The notes beneath the pieces were generated by a model. It saw only the letters and a program-made list of their open reading frames with translations. It was not told the origin of the DNA and did not search any database. Positions 25,332 through 31,706 of a DNA stretch of 64,000 nt are shown here, piece by piece. The stretch is from Thalassospira sp. (GTDB taxonomy: Bacteria > Pseudomonadota > Alphaproteobacteria > Rhodospirillales > Thalassospiraceae): NCBI RefSeq assembly GCF_002709775.1, contig NZ_PAQR01000007.1, positions 1 through 64,000 of the forward strand, read 5' to 3'. Both the position numbers and the translations under genes were made by a program. How positions within the stretch are numbered: position 1 is the stretch's first letter; every line of letters starts with the position of its first letter.

Positions 25332-25445
25332 GATGGCTTTTGCTAGTGCCTTGTTCAATAAGTCATTTTGAAGTTTATCCCGGACTTCTGGCGTTTTCAT
25401 CTATCCTGAACCTCGGTTTGTGTCCGAAATGTCACTAAACTGTGC

Positions 25446-25493
25446 TTGACGAGGCGGGGTATTTCCATCTAGGGTTATGTTGCAATGCAACAT
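25446..25493 (+). promoter_or_regulatory. Phasin promoter with PhaR-like operator
   Basis: TTGACG (25446-25451), 18 bp, and TAGGGT (25470-25475) form a possible promoter. Immediately after lies ATGTTGCAATGCAACAT (25477-25493), a perfect 17-bp palindrome covering the expected transcription start, where a repressor would block initiation. The arrangement fits PhaR control of a granule protein. Confidence 0.45.
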
Positions 25494-25534
25494 TGATCCG
25501 GGGTGGATATCCCGGCGATCAGGAGGTCGAGGCA

Positions 25535-26932
25535 ATGGCTGATTCCAGGAAGAAAACATCCGGGAAAACTGCAACGAAGCCGGTTTCCAAAGCGTCGCCC
25601 AAATCGACAGCGCCCGCAGTGGGAAGCACACCTGCCAAGCGCAGGGTGATGACATCTTCCGAGATCGAAGCTGCTGCCCAGAAGGTATCTGGCGCTGATG
25701 AAAAAATGGCGTCGGAGACTCAAGAGACTCCTTCGGCAATGTCCGAAGTTGCCGCAGCTAAAGCGCCGGAGAGTTCGGCTGCGCCAGTTAGTGCAGCACC
25801 CGAACCTATTAAGGACGAAGCGGCTGCGAAGGCAAAGCCATCGAGTGCGCCGAGTACCAAAAGTGCGCAATCCGGCCCGTCTGAAGAGGTGGTCGGGAGT
25901 GCTGCTGCTCCTGTAAAACCCCAGCCTGCATCCAAGGCACCTGCCTCTTCGCCAGCGCCGAAGACATCGAAACCCTATGAGAAGTCACCTGTTGCAACCA
26001 CCGGGGCCGCGCGACCTGCTGCGAAAAGTACGCCGGCAGCAAAATCGACAGCGCCCGTACCATCCACCAAAACTGAAAAGGCCAGTACCGTGAGCACGAA
26101 AAGCAAATCTGCGGCAACGAGCAAGTCGGCCGCTTCTTCCGCCCCGAAAAAAACAACCGCTGCAAAGGCAACCGCCAAAGCAGCCCCGAAAAAGGCCGCT
26201 GCTGCCCCGGCAAGTGCCGCAACCAAATCAGCACCCGCGCCAAAGGCATCAGCACCAGCCAAGCTTGCTGGAAAGGAGGCCGCGCCGCAATCAGCAGCGC
26301 CTACCAAACCGGCACCTGTGTCGACACCGGCCAAGCCGGCAGTTGCGCCAAAATCGGTCGAGGCAAAGCCAAAAGCCGAGCCAAAACAGGCCGACGTATT
26401 TGGCTTTGGCGCGCTGTTCATGGATGGCACCGGCATGGAGCCGTATTTCGAGCTTTGGAAAACCCCCGAGGTCGAAGCCATGGTTGCCGCTGGCAATGAT
26501 GCCTTTGAAGACAGTGTTTCTGCAGCCAACGAAGCATTCGGTAAAATCTTTGAAACCATGACCGGTCAGGCCGATGTATTTTCCGGGGCAGGGTCGCGGG
26601 TTGCCGCGCAGTATGAAGAGCTCCTCGATGCCCAGAAGAAAAGTTTCGAGGAAGTCTGGCAGGCAACCATGACGATGTTTGAAAAGACTGGCGGGATCGG
26701 AACCGAGCTTTCAAGCTGGATGCAGAAGGAATTTGAAGCATCGCAGGATGATCTTGATGAGCTGGCCAAAGTCGAAAGCCTTGCCGATCTTCAGGAGCTG
26801 CATTCGCGCATCCTCAATCGCTGCTATGCCAGCAGTATGGCCGAGGGTGAAAAGATGCAGGAAATCATGTTTTCTGCCATCTCGGATAGTCTGGATGCGA
26901 TCAGCAAGGCAACCAATGCCGCGATGAAATGA
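25535..26932 (+). CDS. Phasin-family granule protein with long Ala/Lys/Pro-rich N-terminal region
   Basis: A 465-residue protein. Residues 1 to about 290 are low complexity and rich in Ala, Lys, Pro and Ser, with histone H1-like blocks such as KKTTAAKATAKAAPKKAA. The last 170 residues are helical with phasin character (MEPYFELWKTPEVEAMVAAGNDAFEDSV, YEELLDAQKKSFEEVWQATMTMFEK). Phasins coat polyhydroxyalkanoate granules. PhaF of pseudomonads also joins a phasin domain to an H1-like DNA-binding tail, but there the tail is C-terminal. AGGAGG lies 8 nt before the ATG at 25535, which decides the start over an upstream frame. PhaR-like palindromes precede it. Confidence 0.75.
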   Translation: MADSRKKTSGKTATKPVSKASPKSTAPAVGSTPAKRRVMTSSEIEAAAQKVSGADEKMASETQETPSAMSEVAAAKAPESSAAPVSAAPEPIKDEAAAKAKPSSAPSTKSAQSGPSEEVVGSAAAPVKPQPASKAPASSPAPKTSKPYEKSPVATTGAARPAAKSTPAAKSTAPVPSTKTEKASTVSTKSKSAATSKSAASSAPKKTTAAKATAKAAPKKAAAAPASAATKSAPAPKASAPAKLAGKEAAPQSAAPTKPAPVSTPAKPAVAPKSVEAKPKAEPKQADVFGFGALFMDGTGMEPYFELWKTPEVEAMVAAGNDAFEDSVSAANEAFGKIFETMTGQADVFSGAGSRVAAQYEELLDAQKKSFEEVWQATMTMFEKTGGIGTELSSWMQKEFEASQDDLDELAKVESLADLQELHSRILNRCYASSMAEGEKMQEIMFSAISDSLDAISKATNAAMK

Positions 26933-29989: not shown

Positions 29990-30532
29990 ATGAGCCAGGC
30001 TGCACAAAGAAAATTTCGAAACGAAGTCGAGGAGTTCCTGTCCCGGCTTGAGCTGCGCGCGCGTAAGCTGATCTCGCTCGCGGACGTTCTTGATAAGAAC
30101 GCCGATAAGTCCGATGTTACCGGTTATCGCCCGTTTCGAGAAGAGGTGGATAACTTCAAGGCGTTGTCGATTGTGATCATGGAGCGGATGAACAAGCTCG
30201 AAAGTCATCCCAAGAAAGAAGAGCTTGAAGAGCAGTTCCACAAGTTGCAGGTCTTGATGCTGCGTCTTGTCATCAAGACCAGCCTGAAGTTCTTTTTTAT
30301 CATGAGTGCCAAGGAGCACCTGCCGCTTGGCGCGCGCGAAATGTTCCAAAGCGAGTTGCGTACCCTCTATGAGGCAGAGCGAATGATCTCCGATCCGCGC
30401 TATATCAGTCAGCTTGACGACTCCGCCAAGGAAGACCTTGATACGGCCAAAGATATTCTCGAAGAAATCATCGAGAAGGCGCCGGCACTGCTGAATTTCA
30501 ATAAACCAAGAAAGAAAAAGCGCACCAGTTAG
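29990..30532 (+). CDS. Hypothetical helical protein
   Basis: A 180-residue, highly charged, almost wholly alpha-helical soluble protein with no signal peptide. Heptad-like stretches (FRNEVEEFLSRLELRARKLISLADVLDKN; MERMNKLESHPKKEELEEQFHKLQ) suggest coiled coil, and it ends in a basic tail PRKKKRTS. No family is recognised. It lies 105 nt after clpA across a GC-rich hairpin, so it could be read through from clpSA or have its own promoter. Base composition and codon use look native. Confidence 0.7.
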   Translation: MSQAAQRKFRNEVEEFLSRLELRARKLISLADVLDKNADKSDVTGYRPFREEVDNFKALSIVIMERMNKLESHPKKEELEEQFHKLQVLMLRLVIKTSLKFFFIMSAKEHLPLGAREMFQSELRTLYEAERMISDPRYISQLDDSAKEDLDTAKDILEEIIEKAPALLNFNKPRKKKRTS

Positions 30533-30587
30533 TGTGCCATAAGTTGCTTGCAAATAACGCAATTCTCTAAAGTATAGGTAGATTTTT

Positions 30588-30647
30588 GCATTTTGCGAAA
30601 ATAGAAGTTCGCATTTTGCAATCTTTGCATTTTGAAATGCAAAGATT
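30588..30647. repeat. AT-rich repeat block with 28-bp perfect inverted repeat
   Basis: GCATTTTGC occurs at 30588-30596 and 30611-30619, and a related GCATTTTG at 30627-30634. The last is part of a perfect inverted repeat: 13-nt arms at 30620-30632 and 30635-30647 around TG. There is no T tract, and no gene ends nearby. It lies about 85-140 bp upstream of a sigma-54-like promoter, the usual distance for an enhancer-binding-protein site. Confidence 0.6.
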
Positions 30648-30727
30648 ATGAGTTAATGTAATTTTACTCGGAAGGGGATGTGCCGAAATTTCCCGGAAAA
30701 CCGGCGATTTCAAAGGTTTTTCGAAAG

Positions 30728-30744
30728 TTGGCACACATCCTGCT
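30728..30744 (+). promoter_or_regulatory. Sigma-54 (RpoN) promoter candidate
   Basis: TTGGCACACATCCTGCT matches the YTGGCACG-N4-TTGCW consensus at all but two positions and keeps the obligatory GG-N10-GC spacing (GG 30730-30731, GC 30742-30743). Predicted transcription would begin near 30755. Confidence 0.6.
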
Positions 30745-30754
30745 TAGTTCCGGG

Positions 30755-30866
30755 TGGACAGTTGTTCTTTGCAGGGGCGCGTATCGCGCCTGGAACAACG
30801 TAATCTTCTGCAGTTTGCTCGTGTCCCAACCAAACTCAGCGGCGGTCTTATACCGCCGCTTTTTTC
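30755..30866 (+). ncRNA. Candidate small regulatory RNA
   Basis: The region between the sigma-54-like promoter and a strong terminator has no convincing open frame. The predicted RNA of about 112 nt would fold into a first hairpin (30761-30767 with 30793-30799, enclosing 30776-30781 with 30785-30790), a 38-nt single-stranded linker, and the terminator hairpin. This three-part layout is typical of trans-acting bacterial sRNAs. The nearest plus-strand gene ends 222 nt earlier, so the terminator is not explained by a coding transcript. No known RNA family was recognised. Confidence 0.5.
30838..30866 (+). terminator. Rho-independent terminator without an adjacent gene
   Basis: A 9-bp GC-rich stem (30838-30846 with 30852-30860) and a run of T. 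It lies over 300 nt after the nearest plus-strand stop codon and marks the end of the candidate sRNA. Confidence 0.88.
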
Positions 30867-31000
30867 TTGCCTGATTTCCGGGCTCACCATTTCCCCAGTT
30901 TCTGCCGATCGCACTGTTGTTTTGGCGCACGCAATCCACATATAGAAAATGTGGAAGCTCGTCTCATGCGGCTCCAAAGTTCCCAGGATTCTAAAAAAGG

Positions 31001-31088: not shown

Positions 31089-31706
31089 ATGAAGTCCAAG
31101 TGTGGTGTGGCTTTGGCCGGGATGCTGACAGCAGCAGTGCTTGCTGTGCCGCATACCGCATTTGCCAAGGCAGAGTTGCCGGGGGATCCCAACGCGCTCA
31201 TTACTGATCAGTTCATCCGCGATATCCGCGAATGGCTTGCCAATCCGGTTGTGGCGCTTTCCATTACGTCGCAGAACAAGCTCCGTAAGGATATGACACA
31301 GGGCGAGATTGATGCCGCCGACGAGCAATGGCGTGCGGAACGCGAAGCTGAAGATCAGCCGCTGGTGGCAGCAATTCTGACCAACCCACTGTCGAGCTAC
31401 CTGACACAGGTACAGGCACGCTCTGGCGGGATGTATGCCGAAATCTTTGTAATGGATGCAGCTGGCCTGAACGTTGGGCAAAGCTCCATCACCTCGGATT
31501 TCTGGCAGGGGGATGAGGCGAAGTTCCAGAACACCTATCCGAATGGCCCAGATGCGGTTTTCATTGATGAAGCCGAATACAACGAAAATTCTGACGCCTG
31601 GCTGTCGCAGCTCAACATGACGATGAGCGATGCGGACCGTCAGCCGATCGGTGCCGTGACCATCGAGGTCAATCTCAATGAACTTGCGCGCCGTCGCGGT
31701 CTGTAG
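31089..31706 (+). CDS. Periplasmic Cache (PDC)-like sensor protein
   Basis: A 205-residue protein with a Sec signal peptide ([19 protein letters not shown] with cleavage near AFAKA) and no other membrane segment. The C-terminal 100 residues look like a Cache fold: [39 protein letters not shown], where the FVMDAAGxxV strand-turn and the DFWQGDE segment are typical. It would be a soluble periplasmic ligand-binding domain. The gene sits 11 nt before a chemoreceptor whose own sensor region is helical, so the two probably act together; that partnership is inference. Confidence 0.75.

Follow-up and report, generated by a model that had tools for sequence, protein, structure and literature searches.

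Does the non-coding stretch between two small genes of a Thalassospira sp. contig carry a free-standing RNA gene, and if so, which regulator would switch it on? The first-pass annotation of the window (the whole 64,000-nt stretch of DNA analysed here) had placed at this spot a sigma-54-dependent RNA of about 112 nt, probably controlled by an enhancer-binding protein. The parts of the proposed gene are the following:

30729..30744, + strand: sigma-54 promoter TGGCACACATCCTGCT, with -24 GG, -12 GC and N10 spacing
30755..30866, + strand: small RNA gene, fold z -4.41, present in all 29 genus genomes; RNA positions 1-82 are 94.4% identical on average
30755 or 30756, + strand: predicted RNA start, with the end within or just past the T-run at 30860-30865
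30756..30760, + strand: 5' arm of the outer stem, GGACA, pairing with UGUCC at 30822-30826 in the predicted fold
30761..30799, + strand: two-level hairpin, lower stem 30761-30768/30792-30799 and upper stem 30775-30781/30785-30791
30800..30836, + strand: linker GUAAUCUUCUGCAGUUUGCUCGUGUCCCAACCAAACU, near-invariant in the alignment, candidate pairing region
30838..30866, + strand: intrinsic terminator, stem 30838-30860 plus T-run, one pair changed on both sides from G-C to A-U

Read from 30756 to 30866 on the + strand, the RNA spans about 111 nt and is ordered as hairpin, near-invariant linker and intrinsic terminator, its predicted start being the placement expected from a sigma-54 promoter at 30729-30744. 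The fold reaches -43.3 kcal/mol (z -4.41) and 0 of 200 shuffles fold equally well, so the fold proposed in the first-pass annotation is better than chance. The strong intrinsic terminator was also found, with a stem of 9 pairs, 7 of them G-C, ahead of the T-run, and it lies about 306 nt downstream of the stop codon at 30530-30532, in agreement with the distance of more than 300 nt given at first. The linker, described as 38 nt long and open, is present but not fully open, since UGUCC at 30822-30826 pairs with GGACA at 30756-30760 in the predicted fold. Its CUGCA (30808-30812) could also pair with the bulge UGCAG (30770-30774) in a possible pseudoknot.

We then looked at the distribution of the RNA. 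BLAST with 30660-30880 against 60 genomes matched 29, all of them Thalassospira and the window's own genome included; the G024 genome gave a second, short match (L031). Promoter, hairpins and terminator are conserved in all 29, so the conservation in relatives on which the first-pass annotation had made its claim hinge holds. A covariance model built from the 29 sequences, run against 317 genomes of the order, returned 30 matches: the 29 genus genomes and one in G279 (L061, 1501-1585), which falls on the terminator of a flagellin-like gene, one of several in tandem, and was discarded as a false positive. Outside the genus this search found no such RNA in the 317 genomes, which include 67 non-genus genomes with LuxO-like proteins. 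A pattern scan of genome contigs gave 24 stretches, 21 from Thalassospira, one from a Rhodospirillales MAG and two others, L072 and L074, which sit inside apparent coding sequences and were taken as chance. Mean pairwise identity among the 29 genomes is 94.4% over RNA positions 1-82, compared with 67.3% in the promoter stretch, 45.9% in the region from -220 to -30, 34.9% in the 150 nt past the terminator, and 71.9% and 68.5% (nucleotide identity) in the flanking coding sequences.

Covariation was computed on the 20 distinct RNA sequences with 500 shuffles. Standard pairs fill 99.8% of the pair cells, and three pairs, in the upper hairpin and the terminator, change on both sides, a count that 8 of 500 shuffles reach. 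Cells with changes on both sides number 11, reached by 0 of 500 shuffles, a figure that relatedness among the sequences can inflate, and the measure of further pair types did not rise above the shuffles (8 vs 8.6). Within the upper hairpin stem two pairs change on both sides and 99.3% of stem cells are paired. In the lower hairpin stem a single pair varies, and just one of its two bases does so; the rest of the stem is invariant, which puts it beyond the reach of covariation; the outer stem and the possible pseudoknot are invariant in 20 of 20 sequences, so covariation speaks neither for nor against them. At the level of sequence analysis, the small RNA gene at 30756-30866 is confirmed as real, and the free-standing, sigma-54-dependent RNA of about 112 nt is supported by the conservation of its promoter, hairpins and terminator throughout the 29 genus genomes.

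No described family was found for the RNA in Rfam. At gathering scores, 0 of 4227 Rfam families match anywhere in the window, and with E values up to 10 the region 30560-30900 shows weak matches only. Rfam holds a Qrr family, and no Qrr family is among these matches. The best Rfam match on the RNA itself is suhB/mmgR of rhizobia (RF00519), likewise an alphaproteobacterial small RNA with a 3' terminator hairpin; it was rejected, since its 20.5 bits fall short of the gathering score (41) and the similarity is mostly in the terminator and a few preceding bases. Matches to mir-5595 and mir-19 (30607-30663), far below the cut-offs, lie on the enhancer palindromes described below and were also set aside. 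None of six strings searched for occurs in the main text, the part covered, of a paper with published tables of Thalassospira 'miRNAs' (PMC6413936).

Two other readings of the same conserved stretch, as a short peptide gene or as a cis-acting leader, can be judged from the alignment. The absence of a credible open frame, claimed from the window alone, stands on the + strand: an ATG occurs within RNA positions 1-82 in only 1 of the 29 genomes. Most genomes keep a TTG-led frame of 13-14 codons open, which would suit a peptide, and a GTG at 30754 opens a 63-codon frame in the window. Against this, the GTG is present in just 10 of 29 genomes, the longer TTG-led frames (from positions 7 and 14) are altered in L018, which is 2 nt shorter, the near invariance shows no codon pattern, and a ribosome-binding site has no room before position 7. 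Length differences of the RNA among genomes are not multiples of three and would shift minus-strand frames crossing it as well. A peptide gene in place of a regulatory RNA is, on these grounds, scarcely credible. The order clpA, 180-aa gene, RNA, 205-aa gene, methyl-accepting chemotaxis protein (MCP) gene is kept in 29 of 29 genomes, as might be expected of a leader or attenuator whose terminator is conditionally read through into the 205-aa and MCP genes. Yet the terminator has nine pairs, seven of them G-C, and a T-run, the sequence past it falls to 34.9% mean identity over 150 nt, and the distance to the next gene ranges from about 190 to 441 nt, so we regard a cis-acting role as quite improbable and continue with a separate RNA. 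The flanking 180-aa (29990-30532) and 205-aa (31089-31706) genes have no Pfam match at E 0.001. Elsewhere in the window, 25442-26929 encodes a long protein, rich in Ala, Lys and Pro, that has a phasin domain (PF09361) at its C-terminus.

The promoter itself is a short pattern. GG-N10-GC matches once in the window, where 0.47 matches are expected by chance, and is not significant alone; the case for the promoter therefore rests on conservation. The RpoN promoter first proposed was recovered at 30729-30744, and all 29 genomes keep its GG-N10-GC at one and the same distance from the RNA, even as the intervening 11-mers come in 27 different forms.

Control by an enhancer-binding protein, the remaining part of the original proposal, gained both candidate enhancer sites and a likely activator. 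The sites, which carry no strand assignment, are:

30586..30598: LuxO-type site 1, TTGCATTTTGCGA, centred at about -163, one mismatch to TTGCAWWWTGCAA
30609..30621: LuxO-type site 2, TCGCATTTTGCAA, centred at about -140, one mismatch to TTGCAWWWTGCAA
30625..30637: LuxO-type site 3, TTGCATTTTGAAA, centred at about -124, one mismatch to TTGCAWWWTGCAA

TTGCAWWWTGCAA is the LuxO site (UAS-LuxO) of Vibrio qrr promoters and is also used by SypG, a relative of LuxO, according to the available text of PMC10162802. Every one of the 29 genus genomes has two to five copies with at most two mismatches, some overlapping, between -220 and -30. Their usual positions are about -163, -140 and -124 to -116. Site 1 is found at a similar position in most relatives, often as a perfect match, and so is site 2, which lies at -127 to -128 in L025-L028 and L030; a third site falls at -106 to -124 in 28 of 29 genomes, with none in L030. 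In L025-L028 and L030 the arrangement is shifted to about -150, -128 and -107, with some sites missing. Altogether, 100 sites fall within the 5,510 nt of upstream DNA from the 29 genomes: 31 are perfect, 46 have one mismatch and 23 have two. The corresponding counts are 0, 0 and 3 in the remaining 78,383 nt of these loci, which served as control. Shuffling the upstream DNA, with twenty rounds per genome, yielded 0, 20 and 83 sites with zero, one and two mismatches over all rounds. In the window's own genome a genome-wide search found no perfect TTGCAWWWTGCAA; mismatch-free TTKGCAWWWTGCRAA occurs at this locus only, and the relaxed pattern with one mismatch also at 9 other places.

Which protein would read these sites? 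The Pfam Sigma54_activat model matches 15 times in the genome, 11 of them strongly, and one of the genes stands out as LuxO-like (G000:C48:12202-13848). Its product scores 641.6 bits against the NCBIfam LuxO model NF041946, with the next family at 392.9, and matches the LuxO structure 5ep0 at E 3.9e-140; the LuxO model and the LuxO structures fit it far better than any other family listed. The score is below the NF041946 cut-off of 800 bits, which is reached in 0 of the 317 genomes of the order. The protein has the REC-AAA-Fis domains, a GAFTGA motif and the LuxO recognition helix SPSTIYRK, all features shared with LuxO and SypG, and it differs from LuxO in its length of about 548 codons against 463 model positions, in its score under the cut-off and in an Asp replacing the linker Gly. 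An alanine scan in V. cholerae defined 11 helix-turn-helix residues critical for qrr binding (available text of PMC11407668), of which 9 are identical in GSIPRAADALGVSPSTIYRKKQ, the differences being at N410 (S) and L429 (K). The SPSTIYRK helix is absent from all 8 other activators of the genome that were compared, with L106 and L107 outside the comparison. The genome encodes one LuxO-like activator. A glycine in the REC-AAA linker is described as typical of LuxO in the portion of PMC4878744 available. The corresponding position, placed by alignment, is occupied by Asp in all four Thalassospira proteins that were inspected. Of 30 proteins from other genera, 26 were scored: 25 have Gly there and one has Arg. 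LuxO-like matches at E 1e-130 or better are present in 96 of the 317 genomes of the order and in 29 of 29 within the genus.

A stand-alone HPt frame of 116 codons lies 2.2 kb from the luxO-like gene. Also nearby are genes for a periplasmic sugar-binding-type protein and a diguanylate cyclase; a STAS gene is oriented divergently, and a HATPase-REC-SpoIIE gene comes next after it. In all three relatives examined, the HPt, STAS and HATPase-REC-SpoIIE genes are likewise no more than about 6 kb from luxO; two of the three also have the sugar-binding-type protein on that stretch, and one has a close match to the cyclase. The STAS and HATPase-REC-SpoIIE neighbours may resemble SypA and SypE. In other genera, a motif search found an HPt-like ORF beside the luxO-like gene in 10 of 30 loci (L112, L115, L117, L118, L123-L125, L131, L135 and L139), each as a converging ORF of about 120-180 aa, forming LuxO-LuxU-like pairs.

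To see how closely the motif follows LuxO, we compared genomes across the order. Outside the genus, 67 LuxO-positive genomes contain 48 perfect motifs (6 for a reversed control), and 67 genomes with no LuxO match at E 1e-130 contain 23 (again 6 for the control). This is an enrichment of roughly twofold, and genomes without a LuxO match have the motif too, so its presence alone is no proof of LuxO control. In five genus genomes searched in the same way, 3 of the 5 perfect motifs belong to the RNA gene; the other 2 lie away from it and lack a good promoter. Thirteen of the 48 non-genus motif loci have a downstream sigma-54-like site scoring at least 13.7 of 15.9, in a consensus-based score with no chance control; 12 of these sites lie at 97-186 bp, and that of L149 at 40 bp, inside ORFs. 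Of the 12 loci with 97-186 bp spacing, 11 have an ATG-led ORF no more than about 120 nt away from the expected start. In 6 of 11 LuxO-positive genomes of family f22 (L150, L152, L153, L156, L177 and L182), TTGCAAAATGCAA stands 72-106 bp before the luxO match, suggesting that luxO regulates itself there.

The model that we favour, and consider probable, is that in Thalassospira a trans-acting RNA unlike Qrr is turned on by sigma-54 together with a LuxO-like activator, much as LuxO controls Qrr in Vibrio. Sigma-54 RNA polymerase would transcribe the gene from the promoter at 30729-30744, and the genome's single LuxO-like protein, presumably activated by phosphorelay from the HPt protein, would bind the three TTGCA-W3-TGCAA-like sites about 120-165 bp upstream to activate it. 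The link to LuxO is supported by the identity of the sites, the identity of the helix, co-occurrence in 29 of 29 genomes and the motif ahead of luxO in 6 of 11 f22 genomes. Qrr are Hfq-assisted pairing RNAs (PMC3262071, available text). From this analogy and from the invariance of the linker, we infer that the Thalassospira RNA may act in trans, its conserved linker base-pairing with mRNAs. Two exact 12-base complements of the linker were used to look for an mRNA target: in the own genome both occur only at the RNA gene, and across the 29 genomes, where 11 and 11 loci other than the RNA gene were examined, no site at a start codon recurs from one genome to another. The window and the luxO region were also scanned for duplexes; energies were obtained, but no target emerged. 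Of the mRNAs with which Qrr pair (luxR/hapR, aphA and luxO), the luxO 5' region was examined: a 9-base partial complement lies there in L142 and in the same DNA in L229, and is absent from L230. As to the signal, no LuxS was found in the own genome, whose assembly is 93% complete; AI-2 made by the cell itself is therefore not a likely candidate.

Both halves of this model, activator and mode of action, have a competitor. The same sigma-54-dependent RNA might answer to a different enhancer-binding protein whose site resembles that of LuxO: the genome has 11 strong sigma-54 activator matches, two activators (L106, L107) stood outside the helix comparison, and LuxO-type motifs turn up in LuxO-negative genomes too. 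The SPSTIYRK helix, however, belongs to the LuxO-like protein only among the activators compared, and the same motif precedes luxO itself in those six f22 genomes, which leaves another activator improbable. As for the mode of action, stems as near-invariant as the linker and a search that turned up no long antisense target would fit an RNA that sequesters a protein instead of pairing with mRNAs; but no repeated motif was noticed by eye, and the target search, with two 12-base seeds, was a weak one. We consider sequestration unlikely and keep LuxO-driven, trans-pairing RNA as the preferred reading.

How does this gene relate to known systems? LuxO-sigma-54-Qrr is a classic small-RNA switch, and the Thalassospira locus shares its sigma-54 promoter, its upstream TTGCAWWWTGCAA-type sites and, elsewhere in the genome, a LuxO-type activator and an HPt protein. 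It differs in the RNA, which has no Qrr family among its Rfam matches up to E 10, in its host, Qrr being a Vibrionaceae RNA whereas Thalassospira belongs to the Alphaproteobacteria, and in its location. The RNA lies on contig C6 and the luxO-like gene on C48, and in G012, where both are on one contig, they are about 1.35 Mb apart; in Vibrionaceae, in contrast, a putative Qrr is found opposite luxO in 20 of 21 taxa (PMC10162802, available text). Lacking both Qrr similarity and a luxO-adjacent location, the RNA is not classed as a member of Qrr, and still the control of its gene should work like that of a Qrr gene. Judged by sequence, this is a new small RNA gene, shared throughout the genus and carrying a sigma-54 control region of the LuxO type.

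In the literature found, as far as its available text goes, the LuxO-Qrr switch has so far been placed in Vibrionaceae. Among the publications listed as matches, judged by title and the start of the abstract and with few subscription journals covered, none pairs LuxO with a small RNA in Thalassospira or other Alphaproteobacteria, and the available part of a Caulobacter paper (PMC12559287) cites Qrr as a Vibrio comparison. We tentatively suggest, as a possibility that falls a little short of probable, that an old LuxO-HPt phosphorelay, widespread in the order, where its sites mostly seem to precede protein genes, has been rewired in Thalassospira onto one unrelated small RNA, maybe the principal gene under its direct control. 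One enhancer code would then govern two separately arisen small RNAs in two bacterial classes. If true, this would suggest that the LuxO phosphorelay, with its DNA code, has an earlier origin or a broader reach than Vibrio quorum sensing, and that small RNAs can be plugged into the phosphorelay independently. An otherwise anonymous RNA thereby gains a candidate regulator and binding sites that are directly testable.

A locus in another family deserves separate mention. On the minus strand of L160 (genome G227), a LuxO-type site is combined with TTGGCACACCTCCTGCA, the promoter lying at oriented position 1631. Downstream are about 200 nt of strongly folded sequence without an ATG-led ORF of at least 51 codons, overlapped by a GTG/TTG-led frame, and a terminator-like hairpin is visible by eye that the scan did not call. 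L160 is a possible second LuxO-driven RNA.
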